A stretch of DNA of 41,095 nucleotides from Streptomyces sp. NBS 14/10 (GTDB taxonomy: Bacteria > Actinomycetota > Actinomycetes > Streptomycetales > Streptomycetaceae), in assembly GCF_002224125.1 (NCBI RefSeq), contig NZ_NCSM01000045.1, forward strand, positions 1 through 41,095, written 5' to 3'. The notes under the pieces are model-generated. The model saw only the letters and a program-made list of their open reading frames with translations. It made no database searches and had not been told where the DNA came from. The position numbers and the translations under genes are program-made. Below, one piece after another: positions 1,453-25,018 of the stretch (positions are counted from its first letter, which is position 1; every line of letters starts with the position of its first letter).

Positions 1453-2952
1453 GTGCTTCGATCTGGTGACGACTATCTGGCTTCGCTGCGCGATGGGCGG
1501 CAGGTGTACGTGGGAGGTCAGATCGTCGAGGACGTTACGTGTCATCCCGGCTTCGCCGGCGCGGCGCGCACCGTCGCCCGTCTGTTCGACGTTACCGCGT
1601 CGGATCCGTCCCTCCGCTATATCGAGCCGGAGACGGGGGAGCAGACGAATGTCAACTTCCTCAGGCCGCGCTCGGGCGACGATCTTGCGACACGACGGCG
1701 GCTGCACGTGGCCTGGGCGGGGGTGAGCAATGGGCTGTTTGGGCGATCGCCCGATCACGTGGCAGCCATGGTTACGGGTATGGCGTGCAGGCCGGAGGTC
1801 ACCGGCTCGGAACGGTTCTCGGAAAACCTGGTCAACTACTGGCGTTACATCCGTGACAACGATTTGTACCTCTCCTTCGCCGTGCTTCCGCCCGCCGGCA
1901 GCAAGTCGGGCAAGTCGACCGGCGTACAGAACGCGATGCGCGTGGTAGGCACCGACCGGGACGGCGTCACCGTGCGCGGGTTCAAGATGCTCGCGACGGG
2001 CGGGCCGCTGTGCGACGAGATCCTCGTCGGGAACGCGCAACCACTGAGGCCCAGTGATGTGGCCGTCGCTGTCAGTTTCGCGATCCCGGCCAATCATCCG
2101 GGTGTCCGGATCCTCGCCCGCAAGCCGTACGCGGCTCATGCGGTGAGCAGGATCGATGATCCCCTTGCTGACTTCGACGAGGCGGACTCGGCCATCTATT
2201 TCGATAATGTCCAGATCCCGTGGGAGCGTGTGTTCGTCCTCGACGACCCCCAGGCGAGCTACGGGCTTTTCGTCGAGACTCCGGCCCATACCCTCGGCAA
2301 CGCGCAGGCCCACATCCGGCTGCTGGTGAAGATGCGTTTCATACTCGCGGCCGCCAAGCGTCTGGGGGACGCGTTGGACTTCACCGGCAATCCCGCGGTA
2401 CAGGGAGTCTTCGGCGGGCTCGCGGCCAGGGTGAAGATGCTGGAGGCGGCAGTCGTCGCCCAGGAAGCCCACCCGGAGTCATGGCCGAACGGGTACGTGT
2501 CCCAGGACCGGCAGTTCATGTACGCAACGAGCAACTGGTCCATGGAGTACTTCCCGGAGTTCGCCAACGAGATGCGTAAGCTGCTCGCCAGCCACGCCTT
2601 CCAGCAACCAGCTGACGTCAGCGCTTTCGAGGATGACTACACGAAGTCCCTCTTCCTGGAGCTCAACCGGACCGAGGACTTCGAATCCGCAATGGGCAGG
2701 TACCGCCTCATCCGCCTGATGTGGGACCTCGTCGGCTCCGAACTCGCCAGCCGGAACAACCAGTACGAACTCTTCTACGCAGGCCCGCCTCACGTCACCC
2801 GGACCCGCGTATGGGACTACTTTGATTGGAGGGCCGCCGAGGCCCCGGTCCAAGAGTTCCTCACCCGGACCGGTCCCGCCAGCTCGCCTGATGGAGTGGC
2901 CCCGGCCAGGGCGCTGGGCGGTGGTGACGCCATCCTCGGCGATAGAACGTGA
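1453..2952 (+). CDS. Flavin-dependent monooxygenase, HpaB family (copy 1)
   Basis: This 499-residue protein belongs to the 4-hydroxyphenylacetate 3-hydroxylase oxygenase family, which uses reduced flavin supplied by a separate reductase to oxygenate aromatic or heteroaromatic substrates. Length and layout fit: an N-terminal helical part, a middle beta domain (RGFKMLATGG, IDDPLADFDE), and a C-terminal acyl-CoA-dehydrogenase-like helical bundle with LASHAFQQPADVSAF and RNNQYELFYAGPPHVTR. GTG at 1453 is chosen because it follows GGAAGGAGGG and aligns with the start of the second copy at 14553; by eye the two proteins agree at about four of five residues. The substrate need not be 4-hydroxyphenylacetate; family members also attack pyridine-type rings. 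The partner reductase is probably the one at 12170. Confidence 0.9.
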   Translation: MLRSGDDYLASLRDGRQVYVGGQIVEDVTCHPGFAGAARTVARLFDVTASDPSLRYIEPETGEQTNVNFLRPRSGDDLATRRRLHVAWAGVSNGLFGRSPDHVAAMVTGMACRPEVTGSERFSENLVNYWRYIRDNDLYLSFAVLPPAGSKSGKSTGVQNAMRVVGTDRDGVTVRGFKMLATGGPLCDEILVGNAQPLRPSDVAVAVSFAIPANHPGVRILARKPYAAHAVSRIDDPLADFDEADSAIYFDNVQIPWERVFVLDDPQASYGLFVETPAHTLGNAQAHIRLLVKMRFILAAAKRLGDALDFTGNPAVQGVFGGLAARVKMLEAAVVAQEAHPESWPNGYVSQDRQFMYATSNWSMEYFPEFANEMRKLLASHAFQQPADVSAFEDDYTKSLFLELNRTEDFESAMGRYRLIRLMWDLVGSELASRNNQYELFYAGPPHVTRTRVWDYFDWRAAEAPVQEFLTRTGPASSPDGVAPARALGGGDAILGDRT

Positions 2953-3152
2953 CGTCTCTTTGCCGGCGAAGGCGTCGGTTTCGTGTCCGGCCGCGTTCTC
3001 TACGTTGTGGGCGGTCCATGGGGCTGGTCAGTCCAGGCTTCAGCACTTCGATCGTCGAACAGCGTTAGCCCGTCGACAGCGAACGGCTGATGACGCGTGC
3101 GCCGTAGCGGCCGGCGTCTTCGACGGGTTATGCACGTGACAAGAGGAGAGTC

Positions 3153-4190
3153 ATGACAGAGCGTTTCGACCAGGGGTCATGGGCCGTAGCCGGCGTTGAG
3201 ACCATACAGCCGGGTGTGCACCGCGTTCCTCTGCCGCTCCCCCACGACGGCCTGAAGGCCGTCAACGTCTATCTTCTGGAGGGCTTGGCCGACGATGGTG
3301 GCCTCGTCATGATCGACGGAGGCTGGGCGATCCCCGAGGCGCGCAAAACCCTTGAGGAGGCCCTGTCCGCTATCAGTCGCGACCTCGGCGACATCAGCCA
3401 CATCCTCGTCACCCATATCCACCGCGATCACTACACGCAGGCGGTGGAATTGCGTCGGCTGCTGGGTGCCCGTGTCTACCTCGGCGTCGGGGAACGCCCG
3501 GGCCTGGAGCTGCTCAACAAGCTGCGCGATGGGCTGACGGCGCCACTTCAGATCCTGCGGCAGGCAGGAGCCGACGAACTGGCTGACCGCGTCCGGTCGA
3601 CGCACCCCAACCAGTACCAACCCGACGACTGGGAGGCCCCGGACCGTTGGCTGGATGCGGAGACCCTGCGCTTCGGCGAGAGTGATCTCCAGGTCATCCC
3701 GACCCCAGGCCATACCCAGGGGCATGTGGTGTTTCTGGACGAACGGCGCCGACTGCTGTTTTCCGGGGACCACGTCTTGCCACGCATCACCCCGTCCATC
3801 GGTTTCGAATCGGCGGAACCCGGCAGCCGACCGCTGGCCGCCTACCTGGACTCACTACGGCTGATGTCCCGATATGCAGACACCCGCCTGCTGCCCGCGC
3901 ACGGACCCGTCGCCGACAGCACCCATACTCGCGTCGCCGAGCTGCTCACCCACCACGATGACCGGCTGCGCACAACGCTCGCCGTACTCGAGGACGGTAC
4001 GCACGACGCCTTCGCGGTGGCGCGCCGTCTCCCCTGGACCCGTCGGGAGGTGCCGTTCAGCGAGCTCAGCGCCTTCCACCAGATGCTCGCGGTCAACGAG
4101 ACGGTCGCCCACCTGGACGTCCTCGTGCTGCAGGGCCGACTCACGGCGACTTTTGTGGACGGGGTGAATCAGTACAAGCCCGAGCGGTGA
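3153..4190 (+). CDS. Metallo-beta-lactamase-fold hydrolase
   Basis: This 345-residue cytoplasmic protein has the MBL-fold metal site: DGG at about 55-57, THIHRDH at 87-93 (His88, His90, Asp92, His93), then TPGHTQGH and the FSGDH segment. These are the expected metal ligands of a two-metal hydrolase. The family is wide (thioesterases, lactonases, glyoxalase II-like enzymes), so the substrate is open. The C-terminal third has a helical extension seen in MBL proteins near catabolic or CoA-dependent genes. An AAGAGGAGAG ribosome-binding site lies just before the ATG. It follows monooxygenase 1 after 200 bp on the same strand, so it may hydrolyse a ring-cleavage or CoA-ester intermediate (inference). 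Confidence 0.85.
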   Translation: MTERFDQGSWAVAGVETIQPGVHRVPLPLPHDGLKAVNVYLLEGLADDGGLVMIDGGWAIPEARKTLEEALSAISRDLGDISHILVTHIHRDHYTQAVELRRLLGARVYLGVGERPGLELLNKLRDGLTAPLQILRQAGADELADRVRSTHPNQYQPDDWEAPDRWLDAETLRFGESDLQVIPTPGHTQGHVVFLDERRRLLFSGDHVLPRITPSIGFESAEPGSRPLAAYLDSLRLMSRYADTRLLPAHGPVADSTHTRVAELLTHHDDRLRTTLAVLEDGTHDAFAVARRLPWTRREVPFSELSAFHQMLAVNETVAHLDVLVLQGRLTATFVDGVNQYKPER

Positions 4191-4367: not shown

Positions 4368-5468
4368 ATGGCTAAAGCCCTTGCCGCAGTTCTCGAAAGC
4401 CCTAGGAAGTTTCAGTTCCGGGAGTTCCCGATCCCGGAGATCGGCGACGACGACGCCATCCTGAAGGTCGAGGCCGGCGGTCTTTGCGGGACCGATTACG
4501 AGCAATATCTTGGCGGCATGGCCGGTTGGGGCGGCGGAATGCCGATTATCCCGGGCCACGAGATCATGGGCTGGATTGAGCGCATCGGTCCGGATGCCGC
4601 GAAGCGTTGGAATGTCAAGGAAGGGGACCGGGTCGCGATCGATCCGATCGTTCCCTGCGGCCAATGCGCGCACTGTGGTGTGGGCGCCTTTACGCGTTGC
4701 GAGTCGGACATCGGATACGGGCTCTACCAGGGCACGCGCGTAGCTCCCTCCCTGTGGGGTGGATATGCGACGCATGTCTACTTGCATCCCCGTGCGATGG
4801 TTCACAAGCTGCCGTCGAACATCCCAGCAGATGTGATGACGCTGGTCAATCCGCTCTCGAATTCGATCCGCTGGGTGTACGAAGTCGGCGGCGTCGGAAT
4901 TGGTTCGACCGTCGTCATCGAAGGTCCGGGACAGCGCGGCCTGCTCGCGGTTGCGGTAGCCAAGAAGGCAGGAGCTGAGAACATCATCGTAACTGGGACG
5001 GCAGCCGACAGCAGCCGACTCGATTTGGCTCGCGAACTCGGGGCCACCACCACGATCGACATTCACAAGGACGATCCGGTCGCGCGCGTCACCGAACTGA
5101 CGAACGGTGCATTGGCGGATATCGTTCTCGACGTGTCGGCGGGAGCTGTCTCACCCGTCGTCCAGGGGATCGACATGGTCAAGCGCGGGGGCCGCGTTGT
5201 TCTCGCAGGTCTCAAGGGCGAGAACAAGCTGAACGATTTCCCGGTCGATAAGGTGGTGCTCCGGGAGATCGAATTGCGCGGCGTCGTGAGCGGAAGCTGG
5301 CAGTCGACGGAGATGGCGATCAGCATGATCGAGGAAAACACTCAACTCGCAGCTGTTTGCACACATACCTTTGCGCTCGAAGATGTCACTGATGCGGTAA
5401 GGACCCTGGGGCGCGAGATCTCAGACGGCACCGATCCCGTACACATCACGCTTACCGGACGAGCGTAG
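4368..5468 (+). CDS. Zinc-dependent alcohol dehydrogenase (MDR family)
   Basis: This 366-residue medium-chain dehydrogenase has catalytic zinc ligands Cys40 (GGLCGTD) and His64-Glu65 (GHE), and four structural-zinc cysteines at 97, 100, 103 and 111. The Rossmann domain starts near VVIEGPGQRG. It should oxidise an alcohol or reduce an aldehyde with NAD(P). ATG at 4368 is preferred over the upstream GTG at 4350 because GAGAGAAG sits 8 bases before it. By eye its codon use is less GC-rich than that of the genes right of 25 kb, which fits acquisition from elsewhere. It probably acts on an intermediate of the same pathway as monooxygenase 1, but the substrate is unknown. Confidence 0.88.
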   Translation: MAKALAAVLESPRKFQFREFPIPEIGDDDAILKVEAGGLCGTDYEQYLGGMAGWGGGMPIIPGHEIMGWIERIGPDAAKRWNVKEGDRVAIDPIVPCGQCAHCGVGAFTRCESDIGYGLYQGTRVAPSLWGGYATHVYLHPRAMVHKLPSNIPADVMTLVNPLSNSIRWVYEVGGVGIGSTVVIEGPGQRGLLAVAVAKKAGAENIIVTGTAADSSRLDLARELGATTTIDIHKDDPVARVTELTNGALADIVLDVSAGAVSPVVQGIDMVKRGGRVVLAGLKGENKLNDFPVDKVVLREIELRGVVSGSWQSTEMAISMIEENTQLAAVCTHTFALEDVTDAVRTLGREISDGTDPVHITLTGRA

Positions 5469-5930: not shown

Positions 5931-5944
5931 CGATCGTGGCGTCC

Positions 5945-8102: not shown

Positions 8103-9206
8103 CTACGGCATCATCAGGATCGCTTTCACTGTTGTGCCGGTGTGGATGTCGGCGATCGCCTGATCTATCTGGTCGAATGCATAGCGGGTGATCAGCTGGT
8201 CAAATGGGAAGGCACCTGCATCGTGGAGGGCGAGCATGTCGGGGATGAAGTTCTGTGGGACCGCGTCCCCTTGATACACCCCGACGACAGTCTTTCCAGC
8301 GGCCGAGAGAAGGCCGAGGTCCAATGTGGAGCCGGGCTTGGTAACCCCGACGAGCGCGATCTTCGCGCCGAGTGCGGTCGCATCGAACAGCGCAGCAATC
8401 ACCGACGCGTTACCGGTCGTGTCGACTGCGTAGGAGACCCCGCCGTCCGTGATTTCACGGATGCGCTTGGCGAGGTTTGCCTCCTTCCCATTGACGGCGT
8501 GGGTTGCTCCGAGGCGTTTGGCGAAATCGAGACGTTCGGGCAGTACGTCGACGGCGATGATCGTCGTCGCACCGGCGACCTTCGCGGCCATGATCGCGGC
8601 GAGTCCCACGGTGCCGGCGCCAGCGATGACCACGGATGCGCCCGGGGGCACGGATAGGGAATTGAGAATGGTTCCGGCGCCGGTCTGGATGCCGCATCCG
8701 AGCGGCCCGGAGATGTCGAGGGGAGCGCCTTTGGGGAGCTTGACGACGTTGCGGGCAGCGACGATCGCGTGGGTAGCGAAAGACGACTGCCCGAAGAAGT
8801 TGCCGTGGACCCCGTCCCCGGACCCGTCGCGGAGAGTGAGTGTGCCATCCTCCCGGGAGCCGGCGAAGTTGAGCGCCCCGAATCTCAGGCAATAGGCCTC
8901 GCGCCCGGTGAGGCAGTTCCGGCAGCGCCGACAGGACGAGAAGGAGAGGATGACCTCGTCGCCGACGGCGGGGTCGGTCACGGCGGAACCGACCTCTGCG
9001 ATCACGCCGGCTCCCTCGTGTCCGACGACGAGCGGGAAGGCCTGCGGGAGATGGCCGTGCTGCACGGCAAGGTCGGTGTGGCAGAGTCCGACCGCGGTGA
9101 TCTTGACGAGCACCTCGGATGGACGCAGATCATCGAGAGTGAGCTTCTCGAACTGGAACGGCGAGTCTACCTCGCGCAGAATGGCTGCGGTGACGGATGT
9201 GGCCAT
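8103..9206 (-). CDS. NAD-dependent aryl/allyl-type alcohol dehydrogenase
   Basis: This 367-residue zinc-dependent medium-chain dehydrogenase has catalytic Cys42 (GLCHTD) and His63-Glu64, structural-zinc Cys92, Cys95, Cys98 and Cys106, and a Rossmann motif in VVIAGAGTVGLAAI. Overall order and length fit benzyl-alcohol/AdhC-type enzymes that interconvert alcohols and aldehydes. The ATG follows an AGAGGGG box. It runs the same way as the aldehyde dehydrogenase just upstream of it (164 bp), so the pair could take an alcohol to an acid in two steps (inference). No ACATG dyad is visible in that gap; it may be co-transcribed from the promoter at 11049-11078. Confidence 0.9.
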   Translation of the reverse strand: MATSVTAAILREVDSPFQFEKLTLDDLRPSEVLVKITAVGLCHTDLAVQHGHLPQAFPLVVGHEGAGVIAEVGSAVTDPAVGDEVILSFSSCRRCRNCLTGREAYCLRFGALNFAGSREDGTLTLRDGSGDGVHGNFFGQSSFATHAIVAARNVVKLPKGAPLDISGPLGCGIQTGAGTILNSLSVPPGASVVIAGAGTVGLAAIMAAKVAGATTIIAVDVLPERLDFAKRLGATHAVNGKEANLAKRIREITDGGVSYAVDTTGNASVIAALFDATALGAKIALVGVTKPGSTLDLGLLSAAGKTVVGVYQGDAVPQNFIPDMLALHDAGAFPFDQLITRYAFDQIDQAIADIHTGTTVKAILMMP

Positions 9207-9370: not shown

Positions 9371-10925
9371 TCATTCGCCGACGGCAATGGACTTCGTTTC
9401 GAGGAACTCCTCGAAACCTTCAATCCCGGATTCCCGGCCAAGACCGCTCTGCTTGAATCCCCCAGCAGGCAGGTCAGGTGCGTAGTACATTCCGCCGTTG
9501 ATAGAGATCATTCCCGTTCGAATCCGCCGGGCGACCTCAATCGCAGCGCCCTCATCATTGCTCCATACCGAACCAGCGAGGCCGTAGCTGGAGTTGTTCG
9601 CGATGGCGACGGCGTGGTCGACATCGTCGTAGGGTGAGATCGTCAGGACCGGCCCGAAGATCTCCGCCTGCGCGATCGTGGAGTTGGGATCGACGTCGAC
9701 GAACAGTGTCGGCTCGACGAAGTATCCCCGGTCGAACCGCTCCGGCCGCCCACCGCCGACGACCAGGCGTGCCCCCTCTGCGATGCCCTTGTCGATGAGT
9801 CCGAGAACCCGGTCGCGCTGTACTGCTGAGACCTGCGGGCCGTAGACAACCTCCGGATCGGTTGGGTCACCGTAGGAGATCGTCTCGTATACCAGCTTGA
9901 CGAGGTCGACGGCTTCCGCGTAACGCGAGCGCGGGATCAACAATACGAGTTGGGAGCACACAGCCCTGACCGGCGTTCATGCAGACCATGCCGGCAGCCT
10001 GCGGCCGAACGTCCTCAAAGTCGGCGTCGTCGAGGAGAACATTGGCCGACTTGCCCCCCAGTTCGAGAGACACGCGGGCCACGCGGCTTGCAGCGTTGGC
10101 CATGACGCGCTTGCCGACCGCTGTAGATCCGGTGAAGTGCACCAGGTCCACCCGGGGGTCGGTCGTCAGCAACTCGGCAACGGTGTTATCGGACGTCGGC
10201 ACAATGTTGATGACCCCGGGCGGGAAGTCGGTCTCCTCGGCAATGATCTTCGCGACCAAGGTCGCGTGCCACGGTGACTGAGGGGCGGGCTTGAGCACCA
10301 CCGTCGATCCGGCGGCCAGCGCGGGTGCGAGCTTGGTGACCAGCGAGTAGAGCGGGAAGTTCCACGGGGTGATGGCTGCGACCACTCCGACGGCCTCCCG
10401 GCGCACGATCCGTCGTGTGCCGGCCGACCAGGTCTGGTCGGCGAGAGGGTGCTCGTACTCGTAGGAAGTGGCCAGGTCGGCGAAATAGGGGATGTAGGAG
10501 ATCGGGAAGTCGGAGTGGAACGCATAGGTGGTGCGCACTGCGATCCCGATCTCACGCACAGCGGTCGCGCGGAGCTGATCGGCGGCCCGCGTCAGGCCGG
10601 CGTGCAACTGGAGGAGGCAGTGCCTGCGGAACTGCGCATCGCGGGACCAATCAGTGTCGTCAAACGCATGGCGCGCGGCGCTGATCGCACGTTCGATGTC
10701 CTCAGGGCCGGCATCGGCTACCTCGCCCAGCGACTCCTCAGTGGTGGGGTCGATGTTGACGAACGTTTTCCCTGTCAGCGATCCCACGAGTTCGCCGCCG
10801 ATGAGCATTCGTGACTCCCCAGCCGGTGAGCCCGACAGCAAATCCATCGTCGACTGGAACGGATCGTGAGAGTTCCAGATAGAACCCAGTTCCTGCCTGA
10901 GTCGACTGTGATTGATGACCATCAT
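9371..10925 (-). pseudogene. NAD(P)-dependent aldehyde dehydrogenase with a single frameshift
   Basis: Two overlapping frames together make a complete aldehyde dehydrogenase of about 517 residues. The first part carries TPWNFPL, FTGSTAVGK, LELGGKSAN and the catalytic Cys322 in NAGQGC. The second carries EIFGPVLTISPYDD and the C-terminal GGFKQSGLGRE. They are joined by a +1 shift near 9944, where one extra base separates codons for PTR and LLIPRSRY. Everything else is well preserved, so this is either a very recent mutation, a sequencing error, or (less likely) a recoded gene. The start ATG at 10925 follows AAGAGGGAG. The promoter at 11049-11078 with the ACATG dyad drives it, which argues it belonged to the TetR regulon. 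It has an unusual N-terminal extension of about 30 residues. Confidence 0.8.
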
Positions 10926-11048: not shown

Positions 11049-11078
11049 AACATAGAAACATGTCACTCGACATGTCAA
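11049..11078 (-). promoter_or_regulatory. Promoter and dyad operator before the aldehyde dehydrogenase
   Basis: On the minus strand TTGACA (11078-11073), an 18-bp spacer and TATGTT (11054-11049) form a promoter pointing at the aldehyde dehydrogenase. It contains GACATGTC and, after the 8-bp gap, CATGTTTC, the same ACATG-N8-CATGT dyad as at 1284, 14408 and 21563. Confidence 0.75.
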
Positions 11079-14407: not shown

Positions 14408-14437
14408 TTGACATGTCGCCGGGCATGTTTCTATGCT
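14408..14437 (+). promoter_or_regulatory. Promoter and dyad operator before monooxygenase 2
   Basis: TTGACA at 14408-14413, an 18-bp spacer and TATGCT at 14432-14437. The spacer carries ACATGTC and GCATGTT, the ACATG-N8-CATGT dyad of the regulon. The third GACATGT box found at two other sites is absent. It should drive the five-gene unit 14553-21280. Confidence 0.78.
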
Positions 14438-14552: not shown

Positions 14553-15995
14553 ATGCTTCGCACTGGCGATGAATACCTGGTTTCCCTCCAGGACGGCCGG
14601 CAGGTGTACGTGGGGGGAAACCTCATCGATGACGTCACGGCGCACCCCGGATTCGGCGGCCCGGCGAAGACCGTTGCCCGTCTTTTCGATCGGACGTCCT
14701 CGGACCCGTCCCTGACCTACGTCGAGCCGGAGACGGGAGAAAAGACCAGTCTCAACTTTCTCCGTCCGCGCTCGGGTGAGGATCTCACCTTGCGGCGGCA
14801 GCTGCACATGGCCTGGTCGGAGGTGAGTAATGGTCTCTTCGGGCGCTCGCCCGACCATGTGGCCGCGATGGTCACCGGCATGGCGTGTCGCCCGGAAGCC
14901 ACAGGAAACGACCGGTACGCCGAGAACCTGCTCAACTACTGGCGCCACATCCGGGACAACGACCTCTACCTCTCCTTCGCGGTGCTCCCCCCGGCCGGTA
15001 GCAAGTCAGGCGCGTCGTCCGCTGTAGAGAACGCCATGCGCGTGGTCGGGACGAGCAGCGCCGGCGTCAAGGTCCGGGGTTTCAAGATGCTCGCCACCGG
15101 CGGCGCGCTCTGCCACGAGATACTGGTCGGCAACGCGCAGCCGCTGCGCCCGGGGGATGAGGCGGTAGCGGTCAGCTTCGGCATCCAGGCCAACCATCCC
15201 GGCGTGAAGATCCTTTCGCGCAAGCCGTATGCCGCCCACGTGACGAGCAGGATCGATGACCCGCTGGCCGACTACGACGAGTCGGACGCCGCCATCTACT
15301 TCGACGATGTCGTCGTGCCGTGGGACCGGATCTTCGTCCTCGATGACCCGAAGGCCAGCTACGGACTCTTCGTCGAGACACCGGCCCACACGCTCGGCAA
15401 CGCGCAGGCCCACATTCGTCTGCTGGCCAAGATGCGCTTCATGCTCGCGGTAGCCAAGCGTCTGGGTGACGCGCTCGACTTCGCCAGCAACCCCACCGTG
15501 CAGGGCGTCTTCGGAGGGCTCGCGGCACGGGTGAAGATGCTTGAGGCTTCGGTGATTGCCCAGGAGTCTCGCCCCGAGCAATGGGACCACGGCTTCGTGT
15601 CCCAGGACCGTCAGTTCATGTACGCGAACAGCAACTGGTCGATGGAGTACTTCTCCGACTTCGCCACTGAGATGCGGCGCATGCTGGCCAGCCACGCGTT
15701 CCAGCAGCCGGCGGACGTGAGCGCCTTCGACAACGAGTACACGCGCAGGCTCTTCCTGGAGCTCCACCGCACCGACGACTTCGAGGTCGCCATGGGGCGC
15801 TACCGGCTCATCCGCCTCATGTGGGGCATGGTCGGCTCTGAACTGGCCAGCCGCAACAACCAGTACGAGCTCTTCTACGCCGGCCCTCCGCACGTCACCC
15901 GGAGCCGGATGTACGGCAACTTCGACTGGGAGTCGGCCGAGGCTCGCGTCGACGAGTTCCTCGCCCAGACCGCTGCGGACGACGGCGTCGCATGA
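14553..15995 (+). CDS. Flavin-dependent monooxygenase, HpaB family (copy 2)
   Basis: This 480-residue paralogue of the protein at 1453 has the same segment order (YVGG near the N-terminus, RGFKMLATGG, IDDPLADYDE, HAFQQPADVSAF, RNNQYELFYAGPPHVTR). ATG at 14553 has AAAGGA at 14539-14544. Differences from copy 1 are scattered and mostly conservative; copy 1 has a C-terminal tail about 20 residues longer. It heads an apparent operon with SDR, CoA ligase, aminotransferase and aldehyde dehydrogenase (gaps 61, 120, 62 and 2 bp), under the regulon promoter. Two such similar oxygenases may act on successive intermediates, on related substrates, or be a dosage duplication. Confidence 0.9.
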   Translation: MLRTGDEYLVSLQDGRQVYVGGNLIDDVTAHPGFGGPAKTVARLFDRTSSDPSLTYVEPETGEKTSLNFLRPRSGEDLTLRRQLHMAWSEVSNGLFGRSPDHVAAMVTGMACRPEATGNDRYAENLLNYWRHIRDNDLYLSFAVLPPAGSKSGASSAVENAMRVVGTSSAGVKVRGFKMLATGGALCHEILVGNAQPLRPGDEAVAVSFGIQANHPGVKILSRKPYAAHVTSRIDDPLADYDESDAAIYFDDVVVPWDRIFVLDDPKASYGLFVETPAHTLGNAQAHIRLLAKMRFMLAVAKRLGDALDFASNPTVQGVFGGLAARVKMLEASVIAQESRPEQWDHGFVSQDRQFMYANSNWSMEYFSDFATEMRRMLASHAFQQPADVSAFDNEYTRRLFLELHRTDDFEVAMGRYRLIRLMWGMVGSELASRNNQYELFYAGPPHVTRSRMYGNFDWESAEARVDEFLAQTAADDGVA

Positions 15996-16056: not shown

Positions 16057-16833
16057 ATGATGGGAAGTCGTGATCGACGGGTGGCGCTGGTCACCGGTGG
16101 CAACCGCGGGATAGGACGCGAAGTCGCGCGTCAGCTCGGCGAGGCGGGACTGACGGTCGTCATCGGATCACGCGACCTGGTCGCTGGCGAACGAGCAGCC
16201 AAGGAGATCCAGACCGAACTGGCGGACAGCAGGCCGGATATCCAGGTGACCGCGGTTCACCTGGACGTGACGGCACGAGGCGACGAGGCCGGCAACCCGC
16301 ACAGCGCGGCCGAGGAGATCAGCAGGCGTTATGGCCGGCTCGACATCCTGGTGAACAACGCCGGACGGATGGTCGAGGTCCTTCCTACCGACATCACCGG
16401 CAAGGACCTCGAGGCGGCGTTCATCACCAACGTGGGCGGTGTCGCCGAGACCACCCACGCTTGTCTCCCGCTGCTCAAGCAGGCGGAGGCCCCGCGCATC
16501 GTGAACGTGTCGAGCACCACCGCATCGCTGAAGCTCACCACCGAGGACAAGGACTTCGGCGGCGACCACGGGGTGCGGGCGCCCTACTCGACCTCCAAGG
16601 CGGCGCTGAACATGCTCACGCTGCACTACAACAAGGCCTTCCAGGCCGATGAGTCACTGCGTCACATCAAGATCAACGCGATCACTCCCGGGTACGTCGC
16701 CACCGAGATGACCCACGGCCTCGGCACCCGCACCGTCGAGCAGGGCGCTCGCGCCCTGGTCACGCTGGCGTTGAGGGGCGAGGACTCGCCGACCGGTGGT
16801 TACTTCAACGAGAACGGCCCGCTGCCCTGGTGA
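16057..16833 (+). CDS. Short-chain dehydrogenase/reductase
   Basis: This 258-residue classical SDR has the cofactor motif TGGNRGIG near residue 14, NNAG, a catalytic serine in NVSSTTASL, and the YSTSKAALN segment holding the Tyr-x-x-x-Lys pair. The short insert before the Tyr (KDFGGDHGVRAP) is common in carbonyl reductases acting on small ketones. It should interconvert a hydroxyl and a keto or aldehyde group with NAD(P)H. In this operon, with a CoA ligase and a MaoC-type protein nearby, it could be the 3-hydroxyacyl dehydrogenase of a short beta-oxidation, or reduce a ring-cleavage carbonyl; the sequence does not decide. Two adjacent ATG codons (16057, 16060) are possible starts. Confidence 0.88.
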   Translation: MMGSRDRRVALVTGGNRGIGREVARQLGEAGLTVVIGSRDLVAGERAAKEIQTELADSRPDIQVTAVHLDVTARGDEAGNPHSAAEEISRRYGRLDILVNNAGRMVEVLPTDITGKDLEAAFITNVGGVAETTHACLPLLKQAEAPRIVNVSSTTASLKLTTEDKDFGGDHGVRAPYSTSKAALNMLTLHYNKAFQADESLRHIKINAITPGYVATEMTHGLGTRTVEQGARALVTLALRGEDSPTGGYFNENGPLPW

Positions 16834-16953: not shown

Positions 16954-18450
16954 ATGAGTAGTTTCGCCGACGACGTCCTCTACACGGGACTGACGACGGG
17001 CCCGGACCGGCACGCGGTCGCCGATGCGTTCGGCGACTGGACGTGGCGAGAGCTGCAGGAGCAGGTCTTCAAAGCGGAGGCGTACCTTCGCGGTCTTGGT
17101 CTTCCCAAACGCTCACGGGTTGTCCTGGTCGGGCCGGACAGTGTGTGGCACCACATCATGCTCCTGGCCTGTGCCCGTGCCGAGGCGATCTTCGTGCCCG
17201 TGAACAACCGCTATACCTCCGCTGACGCCGACCACGTGATGCGGCTGATCAAACCCGCGGTCGGCCTCCTTCACCCGGACTTCGCTTCGATGTTCGCGCA
17301 TACGGGCTCACACGCATCGGACGAAAAGATGGGGCCGTTCGACCTCGTCACCTGGAACGTCAGCGATGTGAAGGACCTGTCCCAGGTTCAGACGCAGCGT
17401 ACGCCGATCCTGATCACGCTCACCTCCGGTTCGACGGCGGCTCCCAAGCCTGTGTTGTACAGCTCCGAGGGTGAGACGGCGGTCTCTCGGCTCCACGGGG
17501 CGCTATGGCGGCTCAACTCGAGTGACGTCATGCTCGCGCCTCCCGCATTCTCCTGGATCTACGGTCTTGGAACCTCGAACCTGACCGGGCTCATGTCGGG
17601 TTCGAGGGCGGTCATGCTGGAGCGCTTCAGCCCCACGCTCCTGTGCGATCGCGCCGAAGGCCGTGGTGTCACCGTCTTCATGGGCGTGGTCACTCACTTT
17701 CGAATCCTCGTCGACTACTGCGAGAAGACCGGCCGTCGGCCGTTCGGCCCGGAGCTGCGCATGGCCGTCAGCGGGGGAGAACGGCGGGACGAGGTCGCTT
17801 TCGCCAAGTTCGAGGAAATGTTTGGTGTACCAGTCCTCGACCTCTACGCCTCCTCGGAGGGCAGGCCTGGCTTCGGCTACGACCCGCAAACCGACCCACG
17901 CCCAGTGCCGGGCTCCTGTGGCCGTGTCATCCCCGGGGTCCAAGCGAGAGTCGAGGTCGAGGCAGACAGCGACCTCGCCGGGGAGCTCTACTTGCGTTCT
18001 GAGGGTAACTACATGGGCTACTTCGACCCCGAGTGCCTCGTTGAGCCCGAGATCACCCCCGACGACTGGCTGCCGATGGGCGACCGGTTCGAGATCACCG
18101 AGGATGGCTGGGGATTCGTCGTCGGGCGGAGTAAGGAAGTGATCATCCGGGGAGGTGCCAACATCTCCCCGGTCGAGGTCGAAAGCGTCATCGCGCAGCA
18201 TCCCAACGTCACTGGGGTCGCGGTGGTCGGCATCGAGAGCGCCAGCCGCGGTGAATCCGTAGCGGCCGCGGTGGTCGGGAACTTCGTTGGTGTGGAGAAG
18301 CCCGACGCTGCTCTTGCCGAGTACTGCGAGACGCGGCTCGCGAAATTCAAGGTGCCCACCGAGTGGCTGGTCCTCGACCGACTGCCCCGCAACAGCAACG
18401 ACAAGATCGACAAGGTCGCCGTCAAGGGCCTGTTCAACGCCGACGTCTGA
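16954..18450 (+). CDS. AMP-dependent acyl-CoA synthetase/ligase
   Basis: This 498-residue adenylate-forming enzyme has its ATP-binding loop at about 155-165 (LTSGSTAAPKP, where the usual Gly after the Thr is Ala and the usual Gly after the Lys is Pro), YASSEGRPGFGYD as the A5-like region, GDRFEITEDGWGFVVGR, EVIIRGGANISPVEVE and the C-terminal catalytic lysine K484 (NSNDKIDK). It activates a carboxylic acid to its CoA thioester. ATG at 16954 is preferred over the upstream TTG because GGAACTGGAG precedes it. The acid could be the product of one of the aldehyde dehydrogenases. The altered P-loop is unusual but the other motifs are intact. Confidence 0.88.
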   Translation: MSSFADDVLYTGLTTGPDRHAVADAFGDWTWRELQEQVFKAEAYLRGLGLPKRSRVVLVGPDSVWHHIMLLACARAEAIFVPVNNRYTSADADHVMRLIKPAVGLLHPDFASMFAHTGSHASDEKMGPFDLVTWNVSDVKDLSQVQTQRTPILITLTSGSTAAPKPVLYSSEGETAVSRLHGALWRLNSSDVMLAPPAFSWIYGLGTSNLTGLMSGSRAVMLERFSPTLLCDRAEGRGVTVFMGVVTHFRILVDYCEKTGRRPFGPELRMAVSGGERRDEVAFAKFEEMFGVPVLDLYASSEGRPGFGYDPQTDPRPVPGSCGRVIPGVQARVEVEADSDLAGELYLRSEGNYMGYFDPECLVEPEITPDDWLPMGDRFEITEDGWGFVVGRSKEVIIRGGANISPVEVESVIAQHPNVTGVAVVGIESASRGESVAAAVVGNFVGVEKPDAALAEYCETRLAKFKVPTEWLVLDRLPRNSNDKIDKVAVKGLFNADV

Positions 18451-18512: not shown

Positions 18513-19790
18513 ATGTCCAACGAGGCCGTCCCGGTGCTGACCGGACCAGCTCTGTGGAGCGCCCAGGCGCACATGCCGTCCGTGCTCGGTCGGCAGATTG
18601 TCGTCGAGCGCGCCCACGGCTCTTATCTCTTCACCGCCGACGGCAAGCGCCTCTTCGACGGCACTGCTGGCCTGTGGCACGCCAACGTCGGGCATGCCCG
18701 GCCTGAGCTGGCTGAGGCGGCGTACGCCCAGATGCAACGCCTGGAGACGTACCACATCTTCGGCCGGTACCTGAACGATCGGGCAGTTGAGCTGGGGGAG
18801 GTGCTGGCCGGGCTCTCGCCGATCGCCGACTCGAAGGTCATTCTCAACAGCGGGGGATCGGACGCCATTGATGTGGCGTGCAAGCTTGCGCGTCGTCACT
18901 GGCAGGCCGAGGGACGCCCGACCAAGACGATGATCTTGAGCAGGGAGTTCGCCTACCACGGGCTCCACGCGTACGGCACCAGCATCGCCGGTCTGCAGTT
19001 CAACCGAGACGGCTACGGCACGGAGTCGTTGGTGCCGGAGACGGCCCGCATCTCGGCCTATGACATCAACGCTGTCGAGCAGACCGTACTGGAGATCGGC
19101 GCGAGCAACGTCGCCGCGATCGTGGCCGAGCCGATCCAGGGCACCGGCGGTGTCAACCCGCCGGTGCCCGGCTACCTCGAGGGTCTGCAGAGGATCTGCC
19201 GTGAGAACGACATCTTGCTCATTGCCGACGAGGTCATCACAGGCTTCGGCCGCACGGGCAGGATGTTCGCCACCGAGCGCTACGGCCTCCAGCCGGACCT
19301 GATCACCTTTGCCAAGGGCATCACCTCGGGCTATGCGCCGCTTGGTGGTGTCTTCGTCTCCCCGCGCCTGTGGGAGCGCTTCTACCGTGACGCCGACGAG
19401 ACGCCGATCTTCCGCCACGGTGCGACGTACGCCGGTCACGCGACCGCGTGTGCCGTCGCTCTGCGCCACCTGGCTCTTCTGGAAGAGGAGAAGCTGCTGT
19501 CTCGGGTCAAAGAGCTCGAGGTTGTGCTCACCGAGGAGCTCAAGCGCCTGGACGCCCTCGCTGGGGTGGCAGAGACCCGAGTGGCGGGCCTGCTGGGCGG
19601 GATCTCGCTGCATGAAGACCTCAGCGCCGAAGCCCTCACCGATGCACTGATCGAGGACGGCTTCGTCACTCGACCGCTGCGCGGCAACACCGTGCAGGTC
19701 AGTCCGCCGTTCATCACCACCGACGAGGAACTCCGCGAGCTCATGGGCGCCATCGAGGCCGCCGTTCTCGCACAGGAAGGGGGCCGCTGA
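18513..19790 (+). CDS. Class III aminotransferase (PLP-dependent, omega-type)
   Basis: This 425-residue fold-type I aminotransferase has NSGGSDAIDVA for PLP-phosphate binding, Asp239 in LIADEVITGFGRTG, and the Schiff-base lysine K268 in TFAKGITSGY. Family members move the amino group of an omega-amino acid or amine to pyruvate or 2-oxoglutarate. Alanine dehydrogenase in the same regulon suggests pyruvate is the acceptor and alanine is recycled with ammonia release (inference). ATG at 18513 has CAGGAGA upstream. The following dehydrogenase starts 2 bp after its stop, so the two are tightly linked and probably act in sequence: amine to aldehyde, then aldehyde to acid. Confidence 0.9.
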   Translation: MSNEAVPVLTGPALWSAQAHMPSVLGRQIVVERAHGSYLFTADGKRLFDGTAGLWHANVGHARPELAEAAYAQMQRLETYHIFGRYLNDRAVELGEVLAGLSPIADSKVILNSGGSDAIDVACKLARRHWQAEGRPTKTMILSREFAYHGLHAYGTSIAGLQFNRDGYGTESLVPETARISAYDINAVEQTVLEIGASNVAAIVAEPIQGTGGVNPPVPGYLEGLQRICRENDILLIADEVITGFGRTGRMFATERYGLQPDLITFAKGITSGYAPLGGVFVSPRLWERFYRDADETPIFRHGATYAGHATACAVALRHLALLEEEKLLSRVKELEVVLTEELKRLDALAGVAETRVAGLLGGISLHEDLSAEALTDALIEDGFVTRPLRGNTVQVSPPFITTDEELRELMGAIEAAVLAQEGGR

Positions 19791-19792
19791 TC

Positions 19793-21280
19793 ATGAGCAA
19801 GCCCGACACTCTTCTTTCCCCGGACCCGATGTTCCGAGCTGCCGCGGCGAAGGTCGTCGCACGGATCGGGGCCGACCGGGCGACAGTGCCGAATGCAATC
19901 CCGGTCCACGACCCGCATGACGACTCCGTCATCGGCTACGTGCCGGACCTTGATGCCGATCAGGCGTTGGAGGCGGTTTCCCGCGCCGATGCCGCCGGCC
20001 GTAGCTGGGCGGCCACGACGCCCAGGCACCGCGCCGATGTTCTGCGCCGCTGGTATGACCTGCTGATCGACAACGCCGACGACATCGCCCTGCTCATCAC
20101 CCTGGAGATGGGCAAGACCCTGGCCGATGCTCGAGCTGAGGTCACCTATGGGGCTGACTTCGTCCGTTGGTATGCCGAGGAGGCCACGCGGCACACCGGC
20201 ACGGTGCGTGAGGCGCCGACGGGTGGGGCCCAGCTCCTCACCCGACACGCCCCGGTCGGCCTGGCTGTGCTCATCACCCCGTGGAACTTCCCGCTGGCGA
20301 TGGCCACCCGCAAGATCGCTCCTGCGCTGGCCGCAGGTTGCCCCGCTGTCGTCAAGCCTGCCGCGCTCACTCCGCTCACCACGCTCTTCGCGGTGCAGCT
20401 GGCCGTGGAGGCCGGGGTGCCCGAGGATCTGGTCCAGGCCGTGACTACGAGCGACGCCGGCGCCTTCAGCAACGCGGTACTGGCCGACCCTCGGGTTCGC
20501 AAGGTGTCTTTCACCGGATCTACCAGTGTGGGCAAGGTGCTCCTTCGACTCGCAGCGAACAATGTGCTCAAGAGTTCGATGGAGCTGGGCGGGAACGCCC
20601 CTTTCGTGGTCTTCGACGACGCCGATCTCGAGCGGGCGGTCGAGGGCGCCTTCATCGCCAAGATGCGCAATGGCGGTCAGTCCTGTATCGCGGCCAACCG
20701 GTTCCTGGTCCAGGACGGCATCGCGGACGCGTTCGTCGAGGGCCTGACTGAGCGGTTGACGTCACTGCGGACTGGCAGCGGGTTCGCGCCCGGCGTTGGG
20801 CTGGGGCCGATGGTCGACCACAAGGCCGTCCACCGGCTGCAGGGTCTCGTCGATGACGCGGTCGGTCGAGGTGCGAAGCTTCGCACCGACGCTCATAGCT
20901 ACGAAGGCCCCGGCTCCTACTTCGGGGCGGTGCTGCTGGACCACGTGCCTGGTGACGCCGAGGTGGCCACCACGGAGATCTTTGGACCGATCGCGGCTGT
21001 GCAGCGCTTCTCCACCCAGGAGGAAGCCGTCGCACGGGCGAACGATACCGAGTTCGGGCTCGCGGGCTACGTTTTCACCGAGAGCCTCGACCGAGCGTTC
21101 ACCGTCGCCGACAGCCTCGCCACCGGGATCGTCGGCATCAACCAGGGCGTCCCGTCGAACGCCGCAGCGCCGTTCGGCGGCATCAAGGAATCGGGCCTCG
21201 GCCGAGAGGGCAGTACTGAGGGTCTTGAGGAGTACCAGGAGATCCGCTTTTACAACCTGGCCCTGCGGAGCACCAGTTGA
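19793..21280 (+). CDS. Aldehyde dehydrogenase, succinate-semialdehyde type
   Basis: This 495-residue NAD(P)-dependent aldehyde dehydrogenase has Asn165 in TPWNF, Glu264 in MELGGN, the catalytic Cys298 in GGQSCIAANRF and EIFGPIAAV. GGQSC-I-A-A-NR is typical of the GabD/succinate-semialdehyde group. Such enzymes oxidise omega-semialdehydes to dicarboxylic acids. It directly follows the aminotransferase, which would supply the semialdehyde. Residue-level substrate prediction is not possible here; malonic, succinic or glutaric semialdehyde are all open. It may also cover for the frameshifted dehydrogenase at 9371. Confidence 0.9.
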   Translation: MSKPDTLLSPDPMFRAAAAKVVARIGADRATVPNAIPVHDPHDDSVIGYVPDLDADQALEAVSRADAAGRSWAATTPRHRADVLRRWYDLLIDNADDIALLITLEMGKTLADARAEVTYGADFVRWYAEEATRHTGTVREAPTGGAQLLTRHAPVGLAVLITPWNFPLAMATRKIAPALAAGCPAVVKPAALTPLTTLFAVQLAVEAGVPEDLVQAVTTSDAGAFSNAVLADPRVRKVSFTGSTSVGKVLLRLAANNVLKSSMELGGNAPFVVFDDADLERAVEGAFIAKMRNGGQSCIAANRFLVQDGIADAFVEGLTERLTSLRTGSGFAPGVGLGPMVDHKAVHRLQGLVDDAVGRGAKLRTDAHSYEGPGSYFGAVLLDHVPGDAEVATTEIFGPIAAVQRFSTQEEAVARANDTEFGLAGYVFTESLDRAFTVADSLATGIVGINQGVPSNAAAPFGGIKESGLGREGSTEGLEEYQEIRFYNLALRSTS

Positions 21281-21689: not shown

Positions 21690-22802
21690 ATGAAGATCGG
21701 CGTTCCGAAGGAAATCAAGAACCATGAGTACCGGGTCGCCATCACCCCAGCGGGGGTGCACGAGTTGGTCGCGCATGGCCATGAGGTCGTCATCGAGAAG
21801 GGCGCGGGCAGTGGCTCGTCCATCGCTGATGAGGAGTACGCGACTGCAGGTGCCGAGGTGCTCTCCACCCCTGAGGACACATGGGCGACCGCAGAGATGA
21901 TCCTCAAGGTCAAGGAACCCATACGTGAGGAATATGGCCGCATGCGAGAGGGCCAGGTGCTGTTCACCTACCTGCATCTCGCCGCCGACAAAGCTCTCAC
22001 CGAGGAGCTTCTCGCCCGCAAGGTCACGGCGATCGCCTACGAGACCGTCCAGACCGCTCAGGGTGGCCTGCCGCTACTCGCCCCGATGTCTGAGGTCGCC
22101 GGTCGTCTCGCTCCGCAGGTGGGCGCAGCAACGCTGCTCCGGAGCGCCGGCGGTCGAGGCGTGCTACTTGGTGGCGTCCCTGGCGTACTCCCCGCCAAGG
22201 TCGTCATCATCGGCGGTGGCGTCTCCGGGCAGCACGCCACCCGAATTGCGGTTGGAATGGGCGCCCAGGTCACCGTTCTGGACAAGAATCCGCACGCTCT
22301 CAAGGCGATCGACAGGGAGTATCACGGCCGCGTTCGGACGCTCGCGTCGAACGCCTTCGCCATCGAACACGAGTGTCTCGACGCCGATCTCGTCATTGGT
22401 GCGGTGCTGATCCCGGGTGCCAAGGCACCGACGCTTATCTCCAACGACCTGGTCAGGCACATGAAGACTGGCTCCGTCCTCGTTGATATCTCCATCGACC
22501 AGGGCGGCTGCTTCGAGGATTCTCGTGCCACCACGCACGCCGAGCCGACCTACGCGGTGCACGACTCCGTGTTCTACTGCGTCGCCAACATGCCCGGGGC
22601 GGTGGCGAACACCTCCACGCATGCACTGACCTCGGTGACGCTGCCCTACGTCGTGGCCCTGGCCAACAAGGGCTGGCAGGAAGCCCTTCGCGCGGACGCC
22701 GAGCTCGCTCATGGCCTCAACACCAGCAGCGGACTGCTCACCAACGCGCCTGTGGGCGTCGCTCTCGGCCTCGAGTCCGTCGAGGTTGCCTCTCTCCTTT
22801 AA
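21690..22802 (+). CDS. ald: Alanine dehydrogenase
   Basis: This 370-residue enzyme interconverts L-alanine and pyruvate plus ammonia with NAD. The start MKIGVPKEIKNHEYRVA and the substrate residues Arg15, Lys75 and His96 fall at the numbering known for actinobacterial Ald, and VVIIGGGVSGQHA is the NAD-binding loop. Length is standard. ATG follows GAGAGG. It has its own copy of the regulon promoter, so it is not just the housekeeping gene caught nearby. Its likely job is to regenerate pyruvate from the alanine made by the class III aminotransferase and so release substrate nitrogen as ammonium (inference). Confidence 0.95.
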   Translation: MKIGVPKEIKNHEYRVAITPAGVHELVAHGHEVVIEKGAGSGSSIADEEYATAGAEVLSTPEDTWATAEMILKVKEPIREEYGRMREGQVLFTYLHLAADKALTEELLARKVTAIAYETVQTAQGGLPLLAPMSEVAGRLAPQVGAATLLRSAGGRGVLLGGVPGVLPAKVVIIGGGVSGQHATRIAVGMGAQVTVLDKNPHALKAIDREYHGRVRTLASNAFAIEHECLDADLVIGAVLIPGAKAPTLISNDLVRHMKTGSVLVDISIDQGGCFEDSRATTHAEPTYAVHDSVFYCVANMPGAVANTSTHALTSVTLPYVVALANKGWQEALRADAELAHGLNTSSGLLTNAPVGVALGLESVEVASLL

Positions 22803-23104
22803 CGGTCAGAACGTATGCGACTGGGAAGCCGGACCTCACTCAGGCAGGCGTTGGTCCTCAGCGATCGTCTCTCCGCTCTCCCTCTCTCATTCGGCTCCTG
22901 GGTGGCGCTCCGAGTGCACATCGGACGGCTACCTGCGAGCCCGGCGGCAAGCGGGCGCAGCAAGCCTTTGAATTCACGCACCGTCTGCTCCTTCCAGGGG
23001 CACCGTTCCCCTCGCGAATTGCGCCGACGCTGTAGCGGCGACTCCGCGCAACATTTCATTTCACGCCCGTGTGCACTGCTTCATTCACGTCCGGAAGGTT
23101 GACT
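22803..23104. other. Gap of about 300 bp with no recognised element
   Basis: Between ald and the MaoC-like gene I see no open frame with a ribosome-binding site and no ACATG dyad. A GGAAGG at 23093-23098 is the ribosome-binding site of the next gene. The following three genes therefore either share the ald transcript or use a promoter I cannot recognise. Confidence 0.4.
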
Positions 23105-23605
23105 GTGAGTTCACTCCAAGAAGAGGCGTTGAGCGCCGACGTCTCGGCCCCGATCGATCTACTAGAGGGTCGCTATTACGAGGAGGTGCAGGTCGGCCAG
23201 CGATTCATCGCCCCGGCCGTCACGATCACCGAGAGCATGATCACCACCGCGTGTGGTCTGTTTCAGGATCTCGCCCTCCTCCATCGCGACCACCGCATCG
23301 CTGCCGAGAACGGGTTCCGCGGCCCGATCGCCCCCGGAGCTCTCACCATGGGAGCGTGTATCGCTCCGCTCGCACTGATCATCGGCAAGAAGACGGCGAC
23401 GCACCTCACCGACGAGATCACTTACCGAGCGCCGGTGTACGCCGGCGACACGCTCGACATCGAGATCGTCGCCGTACGCCGTGAGGAGAAGTCGCGGTTC
23501 GGTCTCATCGAGTACGCGACGCATGTGACCAACCAGGACGGCCAGAAGGTGGCAGACATCCTCACCAAGATGGGCCACGCCTATGCACCGAAGGGATCGG
23601 CATGA
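23105..23605 (+). CDS. MaoC/hot-dog-fold hydratase-like protein
   Basis: This 166-residue hot-dog protein has FQDLALLH (Asp55 and His60, five apart as in the D-x-N-P-x-H catalytic motif of R-specific enoyl-CoA hydratases), then [13 protein letters not shown] and [16 protein letters not shown], the usual MaoC pattern. It probably hydrates an unsaturated acyl-CoA, although the N and P of the motif are replaced. GTG at 23105 is chosen for the GGAAGG six bases before. Its TGA overlaps the ATG of the amidohydrolase (ATGA), so they are coupled. With the CoA ligase and SDR it suggests CoA-bound processing of the carbon skeleton. Confidence 0.82.
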
Positions 23606-24546
23606 GCGACCGCAACTGGGATGTCGTCGACACCCACGTGCACCTTTGCAGGACCACGCAAGAGGGCTGGAACGCCCGCACGATCGAGGACCGATGGGAC
23701 CGGGGCGGTGACCTGCCCCAGCTGAACCGCTACATGGCTGAGGCCGGCGTCGCCTCGTCGTGGATCATCAACGCGTGGCCGACCGAGGCGATGGGTCAGG
23801 CGATGCGTGCCCGCGCCCCCCAGGACCTCTCCGAGGAGGGCAAGGCCGCTCTCGAGAAGCACTTGCTGGAGCAGCAGCGGGAGCGTTGCGACCGCAAGAA
23901 CGCCTGGCTGTGTGAAGTCGCCGCAGCGAATCCCAAGAAGTTCGCCGCGCTCGTGGGTGGTATCGACCCCTACTTCGGCGCCGACTGGGTCGAGGACCAG
24001 GTCGTGAAGTATCACGCCGCCGGCGCCCGCGGCGTGAAGATCATCTCGACCTGGGGCCAGTACTACCCGTCCGACCCCGCGCTCGAGCGCGCGTTCGCCA
24101 AGATCGAGGAACTGGACATGGTGATCCTCGCTCACAGCGGTGGTCTCGACGGCCACGTCGGCGAGGTCGAGCACGACGACTACGCGTTCCCGATTCAGTG
24201 GCGCCCCGTGCTCGAGCGCCACCCGAGGCTCAAGGTTGTCATGGCCCACCTGGGCTACCTGCAGCCGCTCACTGGCTATGGCACTGAGATGCACGACCAG
24301 CGCGTGCAGATGGCGCGGGATTTCGAAAACGTCTACTTCGACCTCTCCTGCGGTTTCGAGGAGGGCTTCGACGAGGTCGGTATCGAGTCCGTGCGGCAGG
24401 TCGGTGTCGACCGGTGCCTTTGGGCGTCGGACTGGCACAGCCACCGGGCCGTTCTCGGCCTGCAGGGTGTGAAGCGCTCGCTCCTCACCGACGACGAAAA
24501 GGCAGCGATCCTCGGCGAAAACGCCCGGCGCGTTCTCCCACTGTGA
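23602..24546 (+). CDS. Amidohydrolase family protein (PF04909-like)
   Basis: This 314-residue TIM-barrel hydrolase has an N-terminal DTHVHL metal motif (His12, His14), [16 protein letters not shown] in the middle, VMAHLGY and a C-terminal WASDWHSHR with the conserved metal-binding Asp. Members hydrolyse amides or decarboxylate aromatic acids. In pyridine and tetramethylpyrazine catabolism an amidohydrolase acts on the ring-opened amide, which is the role I would first test here. It overlaps the MaoC-like gene by four bases and precedes a small unknown gene by 16 bp. The insert [20 protein letters not shown] is a charged helical segment not typical of the decarboxylases. Confidence 0.85.
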
Positions 24547-24562
24547 AAGGTCCAGACGTTCG

Positions 24563-25018
24563 ATGAGCATCGTCACACCAACTACGAATCCTCACGACTC
24601 TGCTGTCGCGCAGATCGCGAGGACCATGTTCTCCTTCGCCAACGGCGAGGTCTACCCGGGCCTCATCAACCCCACATGGGGCACCTACACGAACGTGGGC
24701 GAGAAGCGGATGCCCGTCCATCATCGCTGGGAGGGCACCCTGTGGCCCGACATCGTGCTGGTGGACACGGCCAAGGACAACTCACCCCGGCTGATCGTCG
24801 AGGTGGAGACCGAGGACACCATCAACGAAGTGACCCTCGACAGGGTCTGGAAACTCGACATGGACGAGTGCCCGACCTTCTACCTCTTCGTGCCTGCTGG
24901 CACTGCCACCAAGACTGCCGAGCTGTTGCTGAAGTTCCGGGGCATGTGCAAGATCCCGCGGGCGCTCTACACCTACGAGTTCGACGATCTCTACAACGTC
25001 GTCGTGACGCCCGTCTGA
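24563..25018 (+). CDS. Uncharacterised protein with a PD-(D/E)xK-like pattern
   Basis: This 151-residue soluble protein is the last gene of the catabolic block. Asp63 in WPDIVLVD and Glu80/Glu82 in RLIVEVET are arranged like the D and E-x-K core of PD-(D/E)xK proteins, with Glu or Thr where the Lys is expected, followed by a helix (LDRVWKLDM) and a strand FYLFVPAG. Similar cores occur in many small proteins without proven nuclease activity. It has no signal peptide or membrane segment. Its tight spacing to the amidohydrolase and the terminator 18 bases after its stop make it a true operon member. Function unknown. Confidence 0.75.
   Translation: MSIVTPTTNPHDSAVAQIARTMFSFANGEVYPGLINPTWGTYTNVGEKRMPVHHRWEGTLWPDIVLVDTAKDNSPRLIVEVETEDTINEVTLDRVWKLDMDECPTFYLFVPAGTATKTAELLLKFRGMCKIPRALYTYEFDDLYNVVVTPV

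Follow-up and report, generated by a model that had tools for sequence, protein, structure and literature searches.

The left part of a 41,095-nucleotide stretch of Streptomyces sp. NBS 14/10 DNA (the window) carries a block of genes, including two for HpaB-type oxygenases, that is a real, conserved unit and probably represents a horizontally moving, co-regulated catabolic system by which soil actinobacteria degrade a non-phenolic compound that contains nitrogen. A catabolic unit had been proposed here in an earlier note made from the sequence alone, and it is supported by the genes, their conservation, and their shared promoter. Every gene class listed in that note is found by Pfam and NCBIfam scans at positions 1453-25018 (Table 1), and the unit reaches past these positions, as the divergently oriented TetR gene to their left also belongs to it. 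The window lies at the left end of contig C68, and the block may therefore extend beyond the window edge. Among candidate substrates a heterocycle or cyclic amide leads, as a tentative choice that falls short of probable, followed by an N-alkylated open-chain amine.

The two oxygenases belong to the HpaB 4-hydroxyphenylacetate 3-monooxygenase family (PF11794/PF03241), which they resemble in having both domains, a flavin reductase gene nearby, and the Arg that stabilizes the flavin peroxide, which is retained in both. They differ in the residues that handle phenol. According to two reviews, the phenol is held by hydrogen bonds to Arg100, Tyr104, and His142, the last of which deprotonates it (PMC10537072, PMC10816480); the equivalents in HpaB2, from an alignment to 2yyg, are R98, H102, and F142, such that His and Phe replace the Tyr and His of the triad. 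This R-H-F triad is present in six cluster copies and in the 12 closest homologues, two of which are identical in sequence to cluster copies. We note that 120 homologues are listed of 472 found among the 7996 candidates sharing most words, and the remaining 108 of those listed are R-H-Y, except for one that is R-H-H and one that is gapped (106 R-H-Y in all). Eleven comparison sequences instead have R-(Y or F)-H, and these include the HpaB proteins of Escherichia coli and Pseudomonas aeruginosa, six with an annotated dioxygenase nearby, one whose neighbors are biosynthetic genes, and two that come from a Chromatiales bin; the Thermus row is a plasmid gene and not the crystallized protein. In a tree of 57 rows, all eleven R-(Y or F)-H rows lie on one side of a branch with support of 100/98. 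The eleven were grouped after the triad had been seen, but the tree itself is independent of that label. Both window enzymes thus form part of a separate clade, outside the phenol and 4-hydroxyphenylacetate enzymes, a placement whose opposite the earlier note had named as grounds for abandoning its proposal. They also score below the equivalog cutoff for the family (235 and 238.5 bits versus 480.2), and we reject a phenol hydroxylase of known type for either one, given the R-H-F triad and the tree position. Many HpaB-family homologues among the matches listed are annotated as 4-hydroxyphenylacetate monooxygenases.

The surroundings of six R-H-Y relatives, which are 34 to 38% identical to HpaB2, bear on what these oxygenases act upon. 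Five of the six adjoin amidase-like genes, and nitrogen chemistry is favored for this reason. Four are in clusters that combine flavin reductase, HpaB, cupin, amidase, and DUF2848 genes, in the proteobacteria Caballeronia, Thioclava, Roseateles, and, as determined by tblastn, Paracoccus (L023, L024, L025, and L036), and a Rhizobium relative adjoins asparaginase, amidase-like, and flavin-reductase-like genes, with an 8-oxoguanine deaminase further on. The proteobacterial clusters resemble the block in pairing a reductase with an HpaB, here R-H-Y, but differ in carrying the amidase and DUF2848 genes and, in three, an annotated ATP-binding cassette importer. No succinate-semialdehyde dehydrogenase (SSADH) or Amidohydro_2 partner is seen beside their oxygenases, although Caballeronia has an AMP-binding gene at a distance of ∼5 kb and Roseateles a pyridoxal phosphate-dependent aminotransferase gene at ∼2 kb. 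We found no paper on DUF2848 among the open-licence literature.

The block genes share one type of promoter, as the earlier note had proposed. Four near-identical sites fit the pattern TTGACATGY N6 RCATGTTY N TATR and are located in four intergenic regions, before the genes for HpaB1, the aldehyde dehydrogenase (ALDH, minus strand), HpaB2, and alanine dehydrogenase (AlaDH). With up to three mismatches allowed, this 28-base pattern has four matches in the window compared with a mean of 0.00 over 100 shuffles, a result that shows uniqueness, since the pattern derives from the window's own sites. At the same threshold there are 12 matches in four genomes (∼29 Mb), 11 of them with at most one mismatch; 11 precede block genes and the other precedes adjoining ALDH-Rieske genes in Nocardioides. 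The reversed pattern, used as a control, gives one match in each of two of the four genomes. In Arthrobacter sp. ISL-5, where the block is scattered in three pieces, each piece has one match. One promoter type defines one regulon across four genomes. From a scan of the first site, the ends of the pattern read as a sigma-70 promoter (TTGACA, 18 bases, TATGnT) with a repeated CATG between them, and the information content of a 30-column profile of the 12 sites is 43.9 bits before any correction for sample size. The dyad symmetry of the sites is imperfect. A TetR gene and the shared sites are both present, and relatives of this TetR (56 to 77% identical) adjoin the clusters in the three other genomes; the TetR protein may bind the shared sites.

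The enzymes recurring in the four genomes are 50 to 94% identical, the amidohydrolase being at 88 to 94%. A single 36.7-kb contig of Nocardia carnea carries genes for TetR, flavin reductase, a major facilitator superfamily (MFS) transporter, HpaB, a short-chain dehydrogenase (SDR), CoA ligase, aminotransferase, SSADH, an intact ALDH, two alcohol dehydrogenases (ADH1 and ADH2), the 151-residue protein, amidohydrolase, MaoC, and AlaDH. Arthrobacter sp. ISL-5 has much of the set, with the three pieces being MFS-flavin reductase-HpaB-SDR-CoA ligase, TetR-HpaB1-metallo-beta-lactamase-fold hydrolase (MBL), and AlaDH-SSADH-aminotransferase with MaoC-amidohydrolase-151-residue protein-ADH1; identity is only 50% for its AlaDH-like gene. 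In a Nocardioides genome there are two groups, HpaB-SDR-CoA ligase-aminotransferase-SSADH and MaoC-amidohydrolase-151-residue protein-ADH1, and also genes for flavin reductase and AlaDH and two for TetR. The rare gene for the 151-residue protein adjoins the amidohydrolase gene in all four genomes, and in the three other than the window's own, ADH1 comes after this pair. A copy of the MBL (79% identical) adjoins HpaB1 in ISL-5, and the Nocardia and Nocardioides genomes have only matches of 48 to 49% identity, located elsewhere. The HpaB clade itself is sparsely distributed: the window's own genome is the only one of 246 of the same genus (E of 1e-100) and of 396 of the phylum (1e-75) to have it, and is one of two among 394 genomes of the class (1e-120). 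Named homologues are from Spinactinospora, Rhodococcus opacus, and Arthrobacter. The block has apparently been passed between soil actinobacteria.

Within the 12.1-Mb genome, a PF03241 search has two matches, both in the block, and the GC content is 65.0% at positions 1-25018 and 68.1% at 25019-41095. Both of the aldehyde dehydrogenases in the earlier note are present, but one copy (ALDH) is frameshifted, as two reading frames meet near 9933-9943 when compared with the intact N. carnea copy. Between the block halves, at 5836-7813, are a fragment of a GMC oxidoreductase (choline-dehydrogenase-like, 27.8 bits) and one of a carboxylesterase (67.7 bits). To the right of the block are a UvrA-like ABC ATPase with a UvrA DNA-binding domain (PF17755; 26444-28966), encoded between two zinc-type oxidoreductases, and an integrase core domain (PF13683, 61.6 bits; 40413-40940) that is possibly a mobile-element remnant.

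Table 1. Features of the block, in window positions; start codons are our own choice, guided by alignments
Feature	Position	Strand	Evidence
TetR-family regulator, presumed repressor of the regulon	626..1198	-	PF00440, 39.5 bits
Promoter site 1 (TTGACA, 18 nt, TATGGT), before HpaB1-MBL-ADH1	1284..1313	+	
HpaB-type oxygenase 1 (HpaB1), triad R-H-F	1453..2952	+	PF11794/PF03241, 246.8 + 119.9 bits
Metallo-beta-lactamase-fold hydrolase (MBL)	3153..4190	+	Pfam
Zinc alcohol dehydrogenase 1 (ADH1), threonine-dehydrogenase-like	4368..5468	+	Pfam, NCBIfam
Zinc alcohol dehydrogenase 2 (ADH2)	8103..9206	-	Pfam, NCBIfam; 71% identical copy in Nocardia
Aldehyde dehydrogenase (ALDH), Rv0768 type, frameshifted	9371..10922	-	NCBIfam
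Promoter site 2, before ALDH-ADH2	11049..11078	-	
Flavin reductase, presumed to serve the HpaB oxygenases	12170..12697	+	PF01613, 88.1 bits
MFS metabolite:proton symporter (shikimate/ProP type)	12879..14207	+	Pfam, NCBIfam
Promoter site 3, before HpaB2-SDR-CoA ligase-aminotransferase-SSADH	14408..14437	+	
HpaB-type oxygenase 2 (HpaB2), triad R98-H102-F142	14553..15995	+	HpaB_N + HpaB, 244.1 + 111.3 bits
Short-chain dehydrogenase (SDR), carbonyl-reductase type	16057..16833	+	Nearest in PDB: salutaridine/menthone reductase
Acyl-CoA ligase	16954..18450	+	PF00501, 173.7 bits
Class III omega-aminotransferase	18513..19790	+	PF00202, 286.5 bits
Succinate-semialdehyde-type dehydrogenase (SSADH), carboxylate-binding Arg, Arg, Ser kept	19793..21280	+	
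Promoter site 4, before AlaDH-MaoC-amidohydrolase-151 aa	21563..21592	+	
Alanine dehydrogenase (AlaDH)	21690..22802	+	TIGR00518, 532.6 bits (cutoff 391.85)
MaoC-fold hydratase (PaaZ/R-hydratase type)	23069..23605	+	Pfam, NCBIfam
Amidohydro_2 protein, 314 aa, probable metal-dependent decarboxylase or hydrolase	23602..24546	+	PF04909
151-aa protein, possible restriction-endonuclease-like fold, ends unit	24563..25018	+	No Pfam match

The gene content is consistent with a route in which the TetR repressor would hold the promoters until the substrate arrives, the MFS symporter would import it, and an HpaB with the flavin reductase would oxygenate it without the usual phenol activation. The alcohol and aldehyde dehydrogenases and the CoA ligase could then convert a side arm to an acyl-CoA on which MaoC and SDR may act; CoA ligase, SDR, and MaoC are assigned to class level only. 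The Amidohydro_2 enzyme would take off a carboxyl group or hydrolytically open the ring, leaving an omega-amino acid to be transaminated with pyruvate, with AlaDH recycling the alanine and freeing ammonia, and the semialdehyde would exit as succinate or a homologue. The Pfam and NCBIfam matches and the SSADH alignment agree with nitrogen release by transamination and AlaDH and with a semialdehyde exit. The AlaDH assignment is well supported by a score over the equivalog cutoff, and that of SSADH is likely. The Arg, Arg, and Ser for the carboxylate are kept in an alignment to five solved relatives, in columns that we assigned (R164, R282, C288, and S445 of E. coli 3jz4, a constant offset of 2 from R166, R284, C290, and S447 in the published numbering of the malic-semialdehyde enzyme), and these three residues hold the carboxylate in human SSADH and malic-semialdehyde dehydrogenase, as described in PMC11353897 and PMC11681614. 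The aminotransferase gene adjoins that of SSADH and AlaDH is close by, which suggests removal of an omega-amino group coupled to pyruvate.

The predicted amidohydrolase is a member of the Amidohydro_2 family, but the closest matches to its modeled structure are non-oxidative ring-carboxylate decarboxylases, with many rows tied. H216 and D277 are invariant and H12, H14, and H178 are present in at least 90% of 23 sequences, and we take these to be the metal and catalytic positions (HxH, His, His, Asp). The protein shares its fold and metal-ligand pattern with the ACMSD/dihydroxybenzoate decarboxylase group, but it is 12 to 20% identical to them in the structural alignments listed, and its gene is paired here with that of the 151-residue protein, for which a restriction-endonuclease-like (PD-(D/E)XK) fold is possible.

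In Arthrobacter pyridine catabolism, a two-component flavin monooxygenase reportedly opens the ring, followed by an aldehyde dehydrogenase, an amidohydrolase, and succinate-semialdehyde dehydrogenase, with the amidohydrolase said to cleave an N-formyl or amide bond; tetramethylpyrazine catabolism in Rhodococcus is said to use similar logic. By enzyme class, the pyr genes of Arthrobacter sp. 68b and the block have in common a two-component flavin monooxygenase, an aldehyde dehydrogenase, an amidohydrolase-type protein, and a succinate-semialdehyde-type dehydrogenase, but the block adds transamination, CoA, and alcohol steps and its amidohydrolase is decarboxylase-like. The kpi cluster for 4-hydroxypyridine in Arthrobacter sp. 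IN13 (PMC7356986) likewise combines a flavin monooxygenase with an amidohydrolase-superfamily protein in an actinobacterium, but KpiA is PF01494 and KpiC is a 52-kDa PF01979 protein, in contrast to the HpaB and 314-residue PF04909 proteins of the block. The earlier note's proposal that the same core is present here has no firm support from these comparisons. An N-heterocycle is a plausible substrate.

The strongest competitor, which we consider unlikely, is degradation of an N-alkylated amine or betaine similar to choline, butyrobetaine, or trigonelline; HpaB would attack a pyridinium ring or the carbon that bears the amine, and 4-aminobutyrate would be the final form of the amine. It draws on Nocardioides, where the promoter outside the block (one mismatch) precedes a dehydrogenase of aminobutyraldehyde/betaine-aldehyde type that is over the aminobutyraldehyde subfamily cutoff (620.3 versus 615), with a Rieske oxygenase resembling GbcA and a reductase resembling BenC encoded behind it (genes at L010:6889-12742). 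A choline dehydrogenase is just downstream (betA 772.8, cutoff 732.1), and an S-(hydroxymethyl)mycothiol dehydrogenase (677.2, cutoff 512.9), needed for formaldehyde from N-demethylation, is nearby. This promoter context speaks for an N-alkylated amine no less than for a heterocycle and suggests an N-methylated feeder substrate in Nocardioides. The window MFS also matches the ProP model, at 207.7 bits and under its cutoff. However, a search of the other three genomes at E of 1e-60, made with no positive control, has no match to the Rieske protein, which scores far below the GbcA cutoff (222 versus 670), and the reductase is below that of BenC (379 versus 430); the window itself holds only a weak GMC fragment. 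Somewhat less probable still is an aromatic acid without ring nitrogen, in which HpaB would hydroxylate an amino- or carboxy-aromatic compound, Amidohydro_2 decarboxylate it, and CoA ligase, MaoC, and SDR finish as in the box and paa routes, but no ring-cleaving dioxygenase, acyl-CoA dehydrogenase, or thiolase is present among the scanned conserved genes, and the aminotransferase and AlaDH imply an amino group. A natural-product biosynthetic or modifying gene cluster is very improbable: such clusters also hold HpaB-type oxygenases, CoA ligases, and class III aminotransferases, and one R-Y-H comparison gene has both an adenylate-forming enzyme and a P450 encoded within 6 kb, but no synthase is present among the scanned open reading frames, SSADH, AlaDH, and an importer are, and the set recurs in four genomes with its own promoter type.

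A nitrogen-containing substrate is favored, and several observations weigh against this account of the block. To our knowledge, no substrate, product, or activity has been measured for any member of the unit. No dedicated ring-cleaving dioxygenase or amidase is present among the unit reading frames scanned, and the amidohydrolase looks like a decarboxylase in the structural comparisons. Composition varies between genomes: no close ALDH or ADH2 is present in the ISL-5 stretches read, and the Nocardioides stretch has no MFS or MBL gene and matches ALDH and ADH2 at only 33 to 46%. The frameshifted ALDH indicates that the window copy may be partly decayed or misassembled. As to regulation, no site is aimed at the flavin reductase and MFS genes in the window with up to six mismatches, or at AlaDH in Nocardioides. 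The neighborhoods supporting nitrogen chemistry are those of relatives at 34 to 38% identity, a nearer group being at 40 to 51%, and in Arthrobacter StoSoilB13, which has DUF2848, cupin, and flavin reductase genes, the query amidase found no match. The CoA ligase matches general families only. SSADH scores 530.5 with TIGR01780, under the cutoff of 646.35, and has Ala in place of the second active-site Cys, a residue reported as conserved in ALDH5 though not in all SSADHs (PMC11681614).

A more far-reaching proposal, which we regard as doubtful, is that the Arg-His-(Tyr/Phe) HpaBs form a class of their own among two-component flavin oxygenases, acting on non-phenolic nitrogen substrates. Here they would start an undescribed actinobacterial pathway in which acyl-CoA steps connect an N-heterocycle with an omega-amino acid, and a metal-dependent decarboxylase or ring hydrolase would have recruited a restriction-endonuclease-fold protein as its partner. 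The three-residue signature and the tree split mark a non-phenol group to which both window oxygenases belong, such that the annotation is corrected and testable proteins are named. If the substrate is an N-heterocycle, this would be an actinobacterial route for which we found no match in print among open-licence papers. As one promoter type defines the regulon, its inducer would reveal the substrate.

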